Shown here piece by piece: positions 3,530 to 43,899 of a stretch of 53,582 nt of DNA. The notes beneath the pieces were generated by a model. That model did no database searches. It was not told the origin of the DNA and saw only the letters and a list, made by a program, of their open reading frames with translations. Source of the stretch: Candidatus Cloacimonas sp. (GTDB lineage Bacteria; Cloacimonadota; Cloacimonadia; Cloacimonadales; Cloacimonadaceae); contig JBDKSF010000036.1 of NCBI GenBank assembly GCA_039680785.1, positions 1 to 53,582 of the forward strand. Direction: 5' to 3'. A program made the position numbers and the translations under genes. Every line of letters starts with the position of its first letter. Positions within the stretch are counted from its first letter, which is position 1.

Positions 3530-4987
3530 ATGAAAATGTGGAAACAATTATTCCTGGTGCTGATGACATTATCTGTTATGAGTTGCGCCACAGCGAAAGA
3601 TAATATGATCGACCTCAATAGTCCCAATCCTGTAGTGGAAGTAGTAAAAAATGTGCGCGAGGCGGTTGTTCAAATCAGAGTTGAGGCAAAAGTGACCGTT
3701 CAAAATTATATGAATCCCTTCTCTGACGATCCCTGGTTCCGTCAATTTTTCCAGTTTCCTCAAGAACAAACTCGCCCCATCGTCTCTTTAGGTAGCGGTT
3801 TTATTTATGAATATAATGCCTCCACTCGTGAAGCATTTATTCTTACCAATAACCATGTTGTGGAAAAAGGTCGGGAAGGAACAATCACTGTAACTATGGC
3901 AGATAAAGTTGTTTACACGGGTTCTGTAGTTGGTTTAGACCCCAGCACAGATGTAGCCGTTATCAAAGTTGTAGTTAAAGAAGGCGAAAAAGTGACCGTT
4001 GCACCTTTAGGAGATTCCGATAAACTCCAAATCGGAGAATGGGCAATCGCCATAGGTAATCCTTTCAGCGAAGGACTGGATCGAACAGTTACTTTGGGTG
4101 TTATATCAGCCACGAGCAGAGCCAATTTAAATTTGGGTGAAAATTCTCCCATATATCAGGATTTCATCCAAACCGATGCAGCCATCAATAGTGGTAACAG
4201 TGGCGGACCTCTTTTAAATATCAAAGGCGAGGTCATAGGTATCAATTCAGCTTTGGCAAGCACTAATGGAGGCAATGTCGGCATCGGTTTTGCCATTCCC
4301 ATCAATCTTGCTAAGCGAGTTGTGCAAGATCTTGTTGCCAGTGGAAAAGTTACCCGTGCCTACATCGGCATTTTACCCCAGGAAATAACCCCGGATATTA
4401 TGGAAGCTTACGGTTTGAAAGAAGTTGCCGGAGTCCTTGTTACCAAAGTGGAAAAGGATTCTCCCGCCGATAAAGCCGGCATTCACGAAGAAGATATCAT
4501 TACTGAAATTAACGGTGAAAAAGTAACCAGTGTGCCTAAATTCCGCATTGCCATCGCTACTGCCAAAGTAGGACAAGAACTTCCTCTCAAAATTGTGCGT
4601 GATAGAAAAGAAATATCTGTGCGCGTCGTTTTAGAAGCATATCCCGAAGATATTGTCGCAGCCAACGATAATGCAAAAGGAGGACCGGCCACAGGTATCA
4701 GCGTAGAATCAATTGATAGCCAAGCAGCCAAGCGTTTAAATGTCACCAGCGATAAGGGTGTGGTAGTTACTAAAGTGGAACCAAATTCTCCCGCCGCCAA
4801 GTCCGGATTAAAAGTCGGCTATGTCATCATTAAAATTGAAGGCAAAGAAATTAATAGCCCCAAAGAATTCAATACTGAGCTGGAAATAGCCAAAACCAAT
4901 ATGGATAAAGAAAACCGCAAGACCATTCGGCTTTATGTGCTGGATACTAATAAACAGCCCTCGGTAGTAATTCTAAAATTTGAATAA
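3530..4987 (+). CDS. HtrA/Deg family periplasmic serine protease with two PDZ domains
   Basis: Envelope quality-control protease and chaperone of the DegP/DegQ type. The N-terminus is a signal sequence ending in LSVMSC, which can be read as a lipobox, so the protein may be membrane-anchored through the cysteine near residue 19. The trypsin-like domain shows the triad: His in LTNNHVVEKG, Asp in DPSTDVAVIKV and Ser in INSGNSGGPL. Two PDZ domains follow, the first starting near YIGILPQEI and the second near GISVESIDSQ, with GVVVTKVEPNSPA inside the second. The length of 485 residues fits DegP/DegQ. The start at 3530 is backed by CAAGGAG 8 nt upstream. It is a single-gene transcription unit with its own promoter and terminator. 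DegP and DegQ cannot be told apart from sequence alone. Confidence 0.93.
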   Translation: MKMWKQLFLVLMTLSVMSCATAKDNMIDLNSPNPVVEVVKNVREAVVQIRVEAKVTVQNYMNPFSDDPWFRQFFQFPQEQTRPIVSLGSGFIYEYNASTREAFILTNNHVVEKGREGTITVTMADKVVYTGSVVGLDPSTDVAVIKVVVKEGEKVTVAPLGDSDKLQIGEWAIAIGNPFSEGLDRTVTLGVISATSRANLNLGENSPIYQDFIQTDAAINSGNSGGPLLNIKGEVIGINSALASTNGGNVGIGFAIPINLAKRVVQDLVASGKVTRAYIGILPQEITPDIMEAYGLKEVAGVLVTKVEKDSPADKAGIHEEDIITEINGEKVTSVPKFRIAIATAKVGQELPLKIVRDRKEISVRVVLEAYPEDIVAANDNAKGGPATGISVESIDSQAAKRLNVTSDKGVVVTKVEPNSPAAKSGLKVGYVIIKIEGKEINSPKEFNTELEIAKTNMDKENRKTIRLYVLDTNKQPSVVILKFE

Positions 4988-5042: not shown

Positions 5043-5260
5043 AAATATTTCTCTGAAATCCTTTTATCCCGTGCATTGGCTTGATAGTTTTCATTAGTTA
5101 CAGCAGTAATTATCTATCTGGAAAGCCCCAAAAAGCTGTGTTTTTTGCGTCCGCATCAGACATATTTACTGCTCCCTAAAAGGCATTTTTTTAATTGGAC
5201 AAAATTCATCCTTCTATTGTAAGCTAATTTCTTGCTATTTAGTAAATTGTCTTATAACGC

Positions 5261-5320
5261 CGTAACGCTTCCGTAACACTTCTCTAACTTCGTTACTGCA
5301 TTGTAAGAGATATGTTACTG
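5261..5320. repeat. Phased GTAAC/GTTAC element, copy A
   Basis: A 60-bp stretch that aligns without gaps, at roughly three quarters identity by eye, to 21637-21696. Pentamers of the type GTAAC start at 5262 and 5273, CTAAC at 5284, then GTTAC at 5292, GTAAG at 5303 and GTTAC at 5314. The spacings are 11, 11, 8, 11 and 11. The left three read GTAAC-like and the right three read close to its reverse complement, so the whole is an imperfect dyad with helical phasing. It lies about 180 bp upstream of the hydF start. It may be a protein-binding array or a small dispersed repeat. Confidence 0.7.
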
Positions 5321-5336
5321 GATTATTACTTTAGCG

Positions 5337-5408
5337 AGCAAGCTGAATATTACCAATGCTCTGCCTCAGTGAAGTGAGCCAGAAAGTAAAGTTTTACAGA
5401 TGCTTGCT
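5337..5408. repeat. Nested inverted repeat upstream of hydF
   Basis: Outer arms AGCAAGC (5337-5343) and GCTTGCT (5402-5408) are perfectly complementary. Between them is a hairpin TCTG-C-CTCA / TGAG-C-CAGA (5360-5368 with 5375-5383, one C-C mismatch, 6-nt loop). It directly follows the GTAAC element and ends 36 bp before the hydF promoter. It could be part of a larger element or an RNA structure; no known RNA family was recognised. Confidence 0.45.
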
Positions 5409-5503: not shown

Positions 5504-6841
5504 ATGAGCTCTGCACCCCGAGGTGAACGCTTAATTATAGCCATAATCGGAAAACGCAATGCCGGCAAAAGCAGTTTGATAAACGCCATAGTCGGTCAGG
5601 AAATAGCTATTGTTTCCGATATTGCCGGCACAACTACAGACCCAGTTGATAAACATTATGAACTTCTGCCTTTGGGTCCCGTAACTTTTTATGATACTGC
5701 CGGAGTTGATGATAGCGGTGAATTGGGCTTAAAAAGAGTGCAGGCGACTCAAAAAATACTCTACCGTGCCGACATAGCAATTTTCGTTTCCGACGGGAAA
5801 CCCTTTACTAAAGCCGAATTGGATATAATAGCTAAAATTATGCGAATGGAATTGCCTATTCTGGTTGTATTTAATAAAAGTGACCAAAACCCAGCCAGCC
5901 CGGAAAACATTGCCTTCTGCAAACAAAATGCTTTGCCTTATTTAAGCGTTTCTTCCGTTACTAAAGAGGGCATAAACGAATGCAAAGACAAAATTATCCA
6001 ACTGGCACCCGAAATTTTAAAAGTGAATAGAATTATTGCTGGCGACCTGGTAAAACCGGGTGAAAATGTTATCTTAGTTACTCCTATTGATTCTTCCGCT
6101 CCCAAAGGTAGGTTAATTTTACCTCAGGTTGAGACCTTGCGCGATTTGCTGGACCGAAATTGTAGCGTGACTGTTTTACAGCCATCCGAATTAAAATCTG
6201 CTTTAGATAATGGAAATGAACCACCGGCATTGGTAATAACCGATTCTCAGGCAATTGAATTTGTGGCAAAAACAGTGCCTAAGGAAATTCCTTTAACCAC
6301 TTTCTCCATTCTTTTTGCACGCTACAAAGGTGAACTGGATATCCTTTGGGAAGGCGTTAACCGCCTGAAAACCTTAAAAGATGGCGATAAAATTTTGATT
6401 GCTGAGGCCTGCTCTCATCACATTCAAAAAGATGATATAGGTAGAGTTAAAATCCCTTACTGGATGAAGAATTTCAGCCATAAGGATCTGATTTTTGAGG
6501 TCTATGCGGGACACGATTTTCCAGAAAATCTGGAAGAGTATGCGGTTTGCGTCCATTGTGGTGGATGTATGATTACTTCTATGGAAATGAACAGACGCAT
6601 TATGGAATGTCATAGACGCGGAGTTCCCATCACCAATTACGGAATGACCATTTCTTTATTGCAAGGTGTTTTGGAGAGAACAATGCAGCCCTTGCTGAAG
6701 GATAAAAATGATAAGTACCAAAATCCCGATTGGGCAAATTCTGGAAGCGGAGTTACAAATGAAAATGTCTCCGAGGCAGCGTGCAAATCAGAAATTAATA
6801 ATTCCTTATCTTCCTCTCCCATAAAGGATAATAAAGAATAA
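5504..6841 (+). CDS. hydF: [FeFe]-hydrogenase H-cluster maturation GTPase HydF
   Basis: Scaffold GTPase on which the 2Fe subcluster of [FeFe]-hydrogenase is assembled before transfer to the apo-hydrogenase. The N-terminal GTPase shows the P-loop GKRNAGKS (residues 16-23), switch GTTTD, G3 DTAG and G4 NKSD. The C-terminal cluster site has C303-S-H305 and H351-C352-G-G-C355, matching the CxH...HCxxC signature, with 45 residues between, at the short end of the known range. The length of 445 residues is a little over the usual 410; the extra is a polar C-terminal tail. AAAGGAG lies 9 nt upstream of the ATG. HydE, HydG and the hydrogenase are not in the window. The stop overlaps the next start as TAATG. 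Confidence 0.95.
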   Translation: MSSAPRGERLIIAIIGKRNAGKSSLINAIVGQEIAIVSDIAGTTTDPVDKHYELLPLGPVTFYDTAGVDDSGELGLKRVQATQKILYRADIAIFVSDGKPFTKAELDIIAKIMRMELPILVVFNKSDQNPASPENIAFCKQNALPYLSVSSVTKEGINECKDKIIQLAPEILKVNRIIAGDLVKPGENVILVTPIDSSAPKGRLILPQVETLRDLLDRNCSVTVLQPSELKSALDNGNEPPALVITDSQAIEFVAKTVPKEIPLTTFSILFARYKGELDILWEGVNRLKTLKDGDKILIAEACSHHIQKDDIGRVKIPYWMKNFSHKDLIFEVYAGHDFPENLEEYAVCVHCGGCMITSMEMNRRIMECHRRGVPITNYGMTISLLQGVLERTMQPLLKDKNDKYQNPDWANSGSGVTNENVSEAACKSEINNSLSSSPIKDNKE

Positions 6842-19794: not shown

Positions 19795-20874
19795 TTAAAA
19801 ACACGATTCCAGTTTTTCTTTGATCTCAGCAGGAGTGAAAACGACGCCTCCCACTTTTCCCCAAAAATCAACCGGAACCTTTCCTTCTACGGCAATTTTT
19901 ACATCTTCTACCATTTGTCCCGAATTGAGTTCAAATACATATACTTTTTTCACATTTTTCCCAATTGCTTGTTTAATTGCATCATAGGGATAGGGCCAAA
20001 CACGAATGGGACGAATTAAACCAACATTCTTCCCTTCCTTAAGAACTTCATTGATGGCTGATTTTACAACCCGGCTGGCAGTTCCCCATGCAACGCAAAG
20101 AACTTCATTATCATCGGAGACATTATAGGTCTCATAACGAATTTCATTTTTATCTATTATCGCGTATTTTTTATAGAGGTTCAGAACATGCTGTTCCAAA
20201 ACTTGGGGATCAAGTTCCAAGGAATTTATTTCATGATGATGCTTTTTATCGCCATCTTCATTGGGACAAATACACCAGGAAAGATGTTGATTGGCAAGCT
20301 CTTGTAATTCCTCTTCCGTTTTTGCCGGCTTAAATTCCACCGGCTCCATCATTTGTCCCAGCATTCCGTCGGCAAGAATCATAACGGGATTACGATATTT
20401 ATCTGCCAAATCAAATGCTTCACTTGCCATATCGGCAAATTCCTGAACCGAACTTGGAGCCAAAACAATTAAACGATAATCGCCATGACCACCGCCTTTA
20501 GTTGCCTGAAAATAATCACCTTGGGCGGGTTGGATGTCTCCCAAACCGGGACCACCGCGTTGAACATTAACTACCACACAAGGAAGTTCTGCACCAGCAA
20601 TATATGAAAGACCTTCCATTTTTAAAGAAATGCCAGGTGAAGAGGAGGAAGTCATCACTCTTTTTCCACTTCCAGCAGCACCGTAAACCATATTGATGGC
20701 AGCAACTTCACTTTCTGCTTGAATAAAAGTGCCTTTTACTTTAGGCATCATTTTTGCCATATATTCAATTAATTCGCTTTGGGGTGTAATGGGATAGGCA
20801 AAATACAATCGACAACCACTTCTAATTGCCGCTTCTGCAATTGCTTCATTACCTTTCATTAAAATTTTAGACAT
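19795..20874 (-). CDS. 2-oxoacid:ferredoxin oxidoreductase, alpha subunit
   Basis: Large subunit of the oxidoreductase that decarboxylates a 2-oxoacid to acyl-CoA with reduction of ferredoxin. The N-terminus KGNEAIAEAAIRSGCRLYFA is the VorB/KorA type, followed by PITPQSELIEYMA, the AESEVAAINMVYGAAGSG segment and SSSSPGISLKMEG. The frame is open from 20907, but the ATG at 20874 (MSKILMKG) was chosen: it lies 7 nt after the ferredoxin stop with a GAGG site in front. This gives 359 residues. The subunit type favours branched-chain 2-oxoacids (VOR) or 2-oxoglutarate over pyruvate. Confidence 0.92.
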   Translation of the reverse strand: MSKILMKGNEAIAEAAIRSGCRLYFAYPITPQSELIEYMAKMMPKVKGTFIQAESEVAAINMVYGAAGSGKRVMTSSSSPGISLKMEGLSYIAGAELPCVVVNVQRGGPGLGDIQPAQGDYFQATKGGGHGDYRLIVLAPSSVQEFADMASEAFDLADKYRNPVMILADGMLGQMMEPVEFKPAKTEEELQELANQHLSWCICPNEDGDKKHHHEINSLELDPQVLEQHVLNLYKKYAIIDKNEIRYETYNVSDDNEVLCVAWGTASRVVKSAINEVLKEGKNVGLIRPIRVWPYPYDAIKQAIGKNVKKVYVFELNSGQMVEDVKIAVEGKVPVDFWGKVGGVVFTPAEIKEKLESCF

Positions 20875-20881
20875 TATAACC

Positions 20882-21085
20882 TCACTTCTCAATCGTAATC
20901 GCCACATCGGGACAGGTTATATAACAAAGTTTGCAGGCAGTACACTTTTCCTGCTCAATACACTCTGCATAGTTATAGCCCTTGGCATTAATGTTTTCCG
21001 ATAAATGAATAATCTTTCTCGGACAAGCAATTATGCACAAACCACAACCTTTGCAGTAATTGGGATCAACAGTCATTTTGGGCAT
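20882..21085 (-). CDS. 2[4Fe-4S] ferredoxin subunit of 2-oxoacid oxidoreductase
   Basis: Two classical cluster motifs are seen, CKGCGLCIIACP and CTACKLCYITCP, in a 67-residue protein. It carries electrons from the TPP subunit to free ferredoxin. The frame also allows a GTG at 21094, but the ATG at 21085 has AGAGG 8 nt upstream and fits the family length. It is the first gene of the operon. Confidence 0.93.
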   Translation of the reverse strand: MPKMTVDPNYCKGCGLCIIACPRKIIHLSENINAKGYNYAECIEQEKCTACKLCYITCPDVAITIEK

Positions 21086-21171: not shown

Positions 21172-21390
21172 CTGGAAGAACTACATCTTGTCGTTCCACT
21201 TACAACCGAGTTATTTCGTTATTGCGCTTTTTATAATAACGATATAAAATATAAAATTGGAGTTGACGAGAACATTAACATCTGGAAGAACGACATCTTG
21301 TCGTTCCACTGGCAACCGAGTTATCTCGTTATTGCGCTTTTTATAGTAACGATATAAAATATAAAATTGAAGTTGATGAGGACTTTAAAA
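21172..21390. repeat. Tandem duplication of a 110-bp palindrome-bearing unit
   Basis: Units start CTGGAAGAAC at 21172 and 21282 and differ at only about a dozen positions. Each unit holds three dyads. The first is GAACGACA-TCT-TGTCGTTC (perfect in unit 2, one mismatch in unit 1). The second is CGAG-TTAT-CTCG (unit 2; imperfect in unit 1). The third is CGTTATT...AATAACG (perfect in unit 1, one mismatch in unit 2). Period is exactly 110 bp. Confidence 0.9.
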
Positions 21391-21392
21391 TT

Positions 21393-21524
21393 GCGGAGGA
21401 TCAGCGTCCTCCGGCTACACTTTTTGCGGAAGAAAGGCGTCCTCCGGCTACATTTTTTGCGGAAGATCAGCGTCCTCCGACTACGCTTTTTGCAGAGGAT
21501 CAGCGTCCTCCGGCTACACACCTG
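21393..21524. repeat. Four tandem 33-bp units, each with a GGAGGA/TCCTCC hairpin
   Basis: Units start at 21393, 21426, 21459 and 21492 with a constant 33-bp period and no spacer. Consensus features are GCGGAGGATCAGCGTCCTCC followed by GGCTACACTTTTT. In units 1 and 4 the core GAGGA-N6-TCCTC is a perfect dyad; in units 2 and 3 it is weakened by changes in the left arm. The T run at the end of each unit makes each look like a miniature stem plus T-tract on the plus strand. The array follows the 110-bp repeats by 2 bp. Confidence 0.9.
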
Positions 21525-21636
21525 TGTCTATAATTTATACATAGTTCTTTGCAACGCATATAAATACTAAATATTTCCACTTGATATAGTAAGAGAACTG
21601 TAACTGATTGTAACATAGTCAATTCAGTAACGACCC

Positions 21637-21696
21637 AGTAACATTTCCGTAACACTTCCGTAATAGCGTTACTGAATCGTTAGAGAAATGTAACAA
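21637..21696. repeat. Phased GTAAC/GTTAC element, copy B
   Basis: Aligns without gaps to 5261-5320. Pentamers begin at 21638 and 21649 (GTAAC), 21660 (GTAAT), 21668 (GTTAC), 21679 (GTTAG) and 21690 (GTAAC), the same 11-11-8-11-11 spacing as copy A. On the left three more GTAAC at 21600, 21610 and 21627 extend the array, the last in the same 11-bp phase. It lies about 255 bp upstream of rlpA. Confidence 0.7.
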
Positions 21697-21895
21697 GAGA
21701 ATAAGTGTATAAAGAAAGGGTAAAACAGCTTAAATACGCTGATATTACACGATATAAGGATATAAATCAATAATATGGATTATGCTGAGGACAGGGAATA
21801 TTTGCCAAACTTACATAATGCCAGATTAAGTTAGAAGAGCGATCCCATAACTAATTGTTACACAATATTATAAGGTTGTTTTGGCATTATTTTTC

Positions 21896-21924: not shown

Positions 21925-21952
21925 CACACCCATCACATAACTAAGGAAAATG

Positions 21953-22447
21953 ATGAAGAAACACAAAAAGAAATTATTGGCTTGCTTAATTGGAATTCAG
22001 GTTATGTTTATTGCGCCTGTAATTGCCCAAACCATAGCAAGCTTAAATGAAGAAGAATTAATTACGGAACAAAGAGGGGTTGTAATTGATTCTTTGCAAA
22101 CTCAAGAACCGCCGGGAGCTCCCCCGGGTGAAAAAATGGTCGCTACTTTTTATTCTAAACGATTTCAGGGTAGAAGAACGGCAAGTGGCGAAAAATATGA
22201 TCGCGATGCCCTCACTTGTGCCCATAAGACCCTCCCCTTTCAAACCTTATTAAAAATAACCAATCCTCAAAACAACAAATCCATAACCGTGCGCGTTAAC
22301 GACAGAGGTCCCTTCAATCGTGGCAGAGATATCGATCTTTCTTATGCTGCGGCAAAAGAAATTGATATGCTTTCTGCTGGTGTAATACCTGTAATTGTGG
22401 AAATATTATCTCCCACACCAACGGATTCTTTGCTGGCAAAACGATAG
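21953..22447 (+). CDS. rlpA: RlpA-like septal ring lytic transglycosylase (double-psi beta-barrel)
   Basis: Periplasmic or lipid-anchored protein that cleaves denuded peptidoglycan glycans. The N-terminus is a signal peptide (KKHKKKLLACLIGIQVMFIA, cleavage near AQ). After a linker the RlpA domain is seen: ATFYSKRFQGRRTASGEKYD, LPFQTLLKITN, the conserved VRVNDRGPF with the catalytic Asp, and GRDIDLSYAAA. There is no SPOR domain, so septal targeting is not evident. There are two ATG in tandem (21950 and 21953); the second was chosen because AAGGA would be only 2 nt from the first. 164 residues. A sigma-70-type promoter lies at 21896-21924. Confidence 0.88.
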   Translation: MKKHKKKLLACLIGIQVMFIAPVIAQTIASLNEEELITEQRGVVIDSLQTQEPPGAPPGEKMVATFYSKRFQGRRTASGEKYDRDALTCAHKTLPFQTLLKITNPQNNKSITVRVNDRGPFNRGRDIDLSYAAAKEIDMLSAGVIPVIVEILSPTPTDSLLAKR

Positions 22448-43376: not shown

Positions 43377-43459
43377 TTCACTCTACCTTCTCTAATGTCA
43401 TATTGGCTAAAATACCAGCTTATTAGAAACCTGCATTCCCAAAAGAAGTCCCATAAAAT

Positions 43460-43488
43460 ATAATAATCCGATATCTCGCTTTTGCCAA
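43460..43488 (-). promoter_or_regulatory. Sigma-70-type promoter for trxA and the following block
   Basis: Minus strand: TTGGCA (43488-43483), a 17-nt spacer, TATTAT (43465-43460). One mismatch in each hexamer. The leader would be about 75 nt. Confidence 0.68.
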
Positions 43489-43573
43489 ATAATATCTGTT
43501 GCATCCGCCTTTAACAAAACTAATATTTACACTTACCATTAGTGACCCAAGGGTATTTATTCGCTAACCCATC

Positions 43574-43679
43574 CTTACTCGTAAGCGCTATGTTTTTCAG
43601 AACTATGCTATAACCATCCCATATTTTAATACGGGATGGTTATGCGATGGTTACCGGTTATATATGCCTTGCGAGCAAG
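43574..43679. promoter_or_regulatory. Two operator-like 12-bp dyads
   Basis: CTTACTCGTAAG (43574-43585) and CTTGCGAGCAAG (43668-43679) share the plan of 5-bp inverted arms around 2 bp, CTTRC-N2-GYAAG. They flank the inverted repeat at 43610-43643, with 94 bp between their starts. They could be binding sites for one dimeric regulator acting on trxA or ino1. Confidence 0.4.
43610..43643. repeat. Perfect 11-bp inverted repeat with 12-bp loop
   Basis: ATAACCATCCC (43610-43620) and GGGATGGTTAT (43633-43643). A second ATGGTTA follows at 43647, 11 bp after the first at 43636, and GGTTA again at 43656. There is no T run on either side, so it is not a standard terminator. Confidence 0.7.
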
Positions 43680-43899
43680 TACGCATTCACCCAAATATAT
43701 GCTGCATAGTCCATAGTAGCTACCATACTTATTGGAGAAAATATTCTGGGTGGTGACAATGCTGTGCAATTCTCTCTCCCTTTTAGGCGGATAATCCCTA
43801 CCTTTAATAAGTGATTATGACCAGCGGATTGTGCTTGACACAAGTGCAATTACATAATAAGTGACTCTAAATAAGCAAATGAATGAAAGGAGAAATAAA

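Follow-up and report, generated by a model that had tools for sequence, protein, structure and literature searches.

Phased 11-bp dyad arrays in the intergenic regions of Cloacimonas genomes and a family of small paralogous proteins that probably bind them

PhoB/OmpR-type boxes are made of half-sites spaced by 11 bp on one face of the helix, and in the matS/MatP system one short type of site is recognised by one protein. REPs are 20-40 bp long, and every rayt gene lies between two REPs in inverted orientation (PMC3733652, PMC2817692). In parC/ParR, direct repeats of about one helical turn (11 bp in R1) are located beside the genes of their binders, and both the sequence and the specificity vary by family (PMC9426499). 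BIME impedes supercoil diffusion, and the topological domains of E. coli measure 10-400 kb, with barriers that are mostly unidentified (PMC6907758). Here we describe an intergenic element of Candidatus Cloacimonas that can be compared with these systems. We found no report of these repeats in the literature, and searches of Rfam, PADLOC, phage and plasmid records, PDB sequences and folds gave no relative of the element or of its candidate partner protein.

The window analysed is a whole contig of 53,582 nucleotides (C36) belonging to a genome of 2.07 Mb, here called G000. The initial annotation had reported that two of its intergenic regions, 5261-5320 and 21637-21696, align without gaps, and this similarity was confirmed (45/60 identical positions); the next best match of copy 1 on the same strand of the window, 35/60, is copy 2 shifted by one 11-bp unit. 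The conserved element exceeds the 60 bp first reported, measuring about 117 bp. Copy 1 occupies 5224..5342 on the plus strand, with a core of six pentamers at 5262-5318, and copy 2 occupies 21601..21718 on the same strand, with its core at 21638-21694; each matches the profile described below with 88.1 bits (E 3.8e-25). The 11-11-8-11-11 spacing attributed to the pentamers is correct, but only some of them are exact GTAAC or GTTAC: copy 1 reads GTAAC, GTAAC, CTAAC / GTTAC, GTAAG, GTTAC and copy 2 reads GTAAC, GTAAC, GTAAT / GTTAC, GTTAG, GTAAC, with an additional GTAAC unit 11 bp upstream, at 21627.

Copy 1 is located between a gene for a DegP/HtrA-family protease (3530-4987, plus strand) and hydF (5504..6841, plus strand). 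Copy 2 lies in the gap from which a vorB-like gene (19795-20907, minus strand) and an rlpA-family gene (21950..22447, plus strand) diverge. The names previously given to hydF and rlpA, which form the context outside the arrays, agree with matches to TIGR03918 (529.8 bits) and TIGR00413 (131.2 bits), respectively. The relatives of the HydF encoded in the window come almost all from Cloacimonadota, with a few from WOR-3 and Hydrothermota. Copy 2 is adjoined by a 110-bp unit present in two repeats and a 33-bp unit (TTGCGGAAGATCAGCGTCCTCCGGCTACACTTT) present in about four (21172-21388 and 21391-21519); similar repeats occupy many long intergenic gaps in the genus, and their similarity links 383 gaps of G008, a complete genome of the same genus (2,246,820 bp). 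A third array, detected at 43593..43660 by a sequence-blind scan (no strand assigned, 60% of the possible matches), lies in the divergent gap 43377-43860. Arrays are present in the window at 5.3 kb, 21.6 kb and 43.6 kb, and the third one has units (ATAACCATCCC ... GGGATGGTTAT / GCGATGGTTAC) of a family other than that of the two copies, called F1; units like these also occur on contig C18 of G000 and in G004.

Each array consists of at least three 11-bp units, an inversion, and then at least three units in the opposite direction. In G000 the pattern GTAAC-N6-GTAAC occurs 60 times against 7 for the reversed pattern, a comparison that provides no null for G004, G008 and G056, as the reversed pattern hits another family (CAATG-N6-CAATG) in relatives. 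An alignment of 38 copies in both orientations revealed a conserved asymmetric unit, from which the F1 profile was built. The scan of the genome with such a profile, which had been suggested as a check on whether copies exceed chance and avoid genes, gave about 61 copies in G000, well above chance. No F1 copy fell within called genes, either in the G000 pieces examined (294 kb, with genes called by a simple script) or in G008. In both genomes the conserved stretch goes from TAATTGCTTG to AAG..GCAA, over 117 bp, with similarity at background level outside, and its ends are inverted around the dyad (TTGCTTG / AAGCAA), as in the terminal inverted repeats of MITEs. An exact scan with a strict pattern found no match among 85,000 species genomes other than its own, and the F1 profile found none in G003.

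We also scanned G008 without setting any sequence, assuming just 3+3 units and a dyad. With a period of 11 this sequence-blind scan gave 98 arrays, all intergenic, against 0 in the shuffled genome (121 against 0 at a looser threshold), while periods of 10, 12, 13 and 14 gave 0-1 hits and 150 kb of E. coli contained 0 arrays. After classification, G008 holds 118 arrays, all intergenic, belonging to at least five unit families: 47 are F1, 44 are F2 (CATTGCTTACC), 14 are F3 (CATATCATTCC), 5 are F4 (TTAATCAAGCG) and 8-9 are F5 (CCATCCTCAAC). G000 has almost no occurrences of the F2 word. Arrays with the words CTAAC, CTAAT, TTAAC and TTAAT are present in genomes of the same genus and the same family, and in another genus the arrays have units such as CAATACGGTAG. 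In G004 and G012 near-perfect palindromic arrays are found at several contig ends, suggesting that arrays break short-read assemblies. The period-9 hits that we inspected in G008 are purine-rich tandem repeats (TTTAGAAGG / TTGAGAAGG) at about 40 places, mostly intergenic.

A candidate partner was found by screening G008 for families of small basic paralogs. The family, A2, comprises nine proteins of about 148 aa in G008 and is present in all 37 searched genomes of the same GTDB family, G000 included, with 1-26 copies each; outside this family it is sparse. The nine paralogs have no match in Pfam, NCBIfam, PHROG, PADLOC or PDB, no recognisable DNA-binding domain and no match to a transposase family; weak rows for lambda integrase (E above 2) were set aside. 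The structure model, which is confident (pLDDT 87.6), shows a beta-hairpin followed by helices, and fold searches with it gave no significant match. Considering one locus per genome, an array lies 5' of the A2 gene in 20/30 loci, at 26-394 bp from the start codon; within 300 bp the count is 18 of 30, against 3.2% of G008 genes (p 1e-19). No array was recorded on the 3' side in the remaining loci of the 30. Four G008 paralogs each have a 5' array, of four different families, and each of these arrays agrees with its own family (47/47 F1, 44/44 F2, 14/14 F3 and 5/5 F4) and with 0-1 arrays of the others. The similarity of A2 proteins tracks that of their 5' arrays (Mantel r 0.47), a correlation that could also arise simply because a gene is inherited together with the DNA upstream of it. 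At G008 paralogs 33932, 100837, 752235, 770987, 1660701 and 1678024 we also observed a TTTTGTCACC-like motif, usually twice, just 5' of a TATATAA-like stretch. This motif is present also at paralogs without an array and possibly marks a regulator shared by all the paralogs.

The distribution of the arrays along the chromosome was evaluated in G008, the one complete genome on which exclusion across families was tested. No intergenic gap longer than 300 bp contains two arrays, against 14-17 expected. With all families pooled, arrays are spaced by 19 kb on average (median 16 kb), and only 5 spacings are below 8 kb where 32-37 are expected; a strict detector gives 1 where 26-27 are expected. The avoidance also holds between families: F1 is found within 8 kb of another family twice and F2 once, against 22 expected in both cases, and there is a single F1-F2 pair closer than 8 kb against 12.5 expected. 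Even spacing of F1 considered alone is not significant in G008, and the signal appears when all families are pooled; in G000, none of the 18 within-contig F1 spacings is below 10 kb, against 7.5 expected. At 1769889-1772821 of G008 an F6/F1-like array and an F2 array are 1.5 kb apart, in a stretch that the gene caller splits with a small gene. In G000 (C14) the same neighbours flank a single F1 array, and one family may here be in the course of replacing another. The two longest stretches of G008 that lack arrays, 729-819 kb and 931-1029 kb, contain two array-less paralogs each (752235 and 770987; 972080 and 972548).

Positions are also kept between species. Between G000 and G008, orthologous proteins share about 80% identity and long gaps are scrambled; in gap alignments the array appears as a recognisable island amid diverged DNA. 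Where both flanking genes of an F1 array have stayed together, an array is found in G008 at 9/12 positions, the base rate being about one third (p 0.002), and in 2/9 of the kept positions the family has switched, from F1 to F4 and from F1 to F2. The array upstream of rlpA is present in G000 and G008 and, with variant words, in G001 and G007. Within the operons of G000 and G008, gene order is wholly kept (99/99 junctions under 50 bp), but breaks are common in long intergenic gaps, an extreme shuffling between transcription units.

The architecture of the arrays, their families, intergenic placement, mutual exclusion, positional conservation and one-to-one association with paralogs can be read from the DNA itself, and on this basis we propose, with slightly more than even confidence, that the arrays are sites of nucleoprotein assembly, each paralog binding its own family, regulating its own gene and, jointly with the others, tiling the chromosome in a structural role. 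Identical protein subunits would be aligned along a single helix face, to either side of the dyad. Each paralog would bind its own type of array, using the 5' copy to adjust its own gene and occupying the other copies along the chromosome. The arrays would give the nucleoid a fixed anchor, bridge or boundary every 10-20 kb or so. The earlier suggestion of a cooperative array on one DNA face is well supported by the 11-bp phasing, the central dyad, the lack of covariation discussed below and the genes with a matching 5' array; the small A2 protein probably binds the matching array, and a role as anchor, bridge or boundary is the most likely one for the arrays. Close neighbours are almost never seen among arrays, whatever their families, and one family can take the place of another at a locus, so the families appear to do equivalent work. 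That in Ca. Cloacamonas and its relatives small DNA-binding paralogs of diverged specificity each own a family of dyad arrays, and that these families are interchangeable, exclude each other and tile the chromosome at about 10-20 kb, seems to us an evenly balanced proposition. Some observations count against this explanation: 5/9 G008 paralogs have no 5' array, F5 has no matched paralog, and copy number is patchy among relatives (no F1 in G003, scarce F2 in G000).

The main rival is that arrays are selfish or mobile repeats, small non-autonomous elements spread by the paralog or by another enzyme with target immunity, which we consider unlikely. A discrete unit of 117 bp with inverted ends, families that are patchy among close relatives and a gene accompanied by matching dispersed repeats, as in RAYT/REP (PMC2817692), would all fit such elements, and so would two further comparisons: some G008 copies have 450-900 bp of flank in common (85-95% identical), and the arrays on contigs C103 and C117 of G000 are missing from the syntenic G008 gaps of about 9 and 135 bp. 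However the protein matches no transposase family, the array is on one side of the gene only, and no target duplication was recognised, although in the two array-free syntenic gaps divergence is too great to reveal any. Moreover positions are kept although most of the DNA around them has diverged, and immunity would need to operate between arrays whose units are unrelated in sequence. The conserved mobile palindrome considered by the initial annotation was not demonstrated, given the 9/12 kept syntenic positions, even if presence/absence differences and duplicated flanks permit some mobility; insertion immunity, instead of a structural need, could also produce the spacing of the arrays. Shuffling of chromosome segments by recombination at the arrays is very improbable in our opinion. 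Of 32 array gaps, 20 have lost synteny between G000 and G008, and in 3 cases (F1 only) or 4 (any family) both broken flanks abut G008 arrays, but long gaps without F1 arrays break about equally (5/9 at 300 bp or more) and the flank sides abutting arrays are 20/40 against a base rate of 36%. Because the few long array-free gaps break as often, a breakpoint role is not claimed and this reading was set aside.

The location upstream of hydF and rlpA had also suggested a link with promoters, which is not general. The idea that the arrays are operators and the paralogs global transcription regulators, with regulons of up to about 50 genes, is favoured by the array 5' of the paralog's own gene and by the genes flanking arrays in G008, which include groEL, htpG and those for trigger factor, peroxiredoxin, rubrerythrin, uvrA and a umuC-like polymerase. 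On the other hand the long G008 gaps holding an array are enriched among convergent ones (35/72 against 77/277 of the others; odds ratio 2.5, p 0.001), where neighbouring genes have no promoter. Arrays lie anywhere between tens and more than 1,000 bases from the nearest genes, the flanking genes have mixed functions, and regulons do not predict that arrays of different regulators should avoid each other over 8 kb. These context counts led us to drop the promoter-operator as a general role, with the exception of the paralogs' own genes, and we regard this alternative as quite improbable. A hairpin of RNA or DNA, such as a terminator, a small RNA or a cruciform, acting in place of a protein array has a very low probability. 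Single elements do fold well as RNA (z from -1.7 to -5.3) and G004 and G012 contain the near-perfect palindromes, but the register of the fold changes from copy to copy, the elements of the four loci searched have no Rfam match, and across 81 elements from two genomes no covariation was seen between mirror columns (overall z 1.8), a test after which the hairpin was dropped. The arms are alike because one unit is repeated in opposite directions, as a protein array predicts.

If the assembly-site explanation is true, the arrays would mark a bacterial chromosome at intervals in a previously unknown manner, and A2 would be an uncharacterised protein family involved in it. They would also provide a built-in record of protein-DNA co-evolution, with a paralog set and at least five site families within a single genome, and with more unit types among its relatives. 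With proposed anchors located to the base pair, it would become possible to test what sets the size of bacterial chromosome domains. The spacing of the arrays matches the lower end of the range quoted for topological domains in E. coli.

Compared with the known systems, the arrays resemble REP/RAYT in being many dispersed intergenic palindromes accompanied by a gene family whose members each have their own type of repeat. They differ because here the repeats are 117-bp phased arrays of 11-bp units on the 5' side only, none being recorded 3' of the genes where rayt has two flanking repeats. Moreover the protein is not a recognisable transposase, with no IS200/IS605-type tyrosine transposase family of Pfam, NCBIfam or PHROG assigned to the nine paralogs, and copies exclude one another across families. 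The direct-repeat array beside the gene of a candidate binder recalls parC/ParR. However a plasmid has one partition site, next to the gene of an actin-like ATPase, whereas here one chromosome carries 118 arrays, up to about 50 sites per family, with a central dyad and a protein that gave no ribbon-helix-helix hit in Pfam and is modelled as a beta-hairpin followed by helices. With matS/MatP and BIME the arrays share the dispersion of sites along the chromosome, which in those systems organise the nucleoid, but neither has interchangeable families, each with its own paralog. PhoB/OmpR boxes are promoter operators of few units, while the arrays have six or more, a central inversion and no preference for promoters. 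Arrays matched by paralogs look like an undescribed mode of bacterial chromosome organisation.
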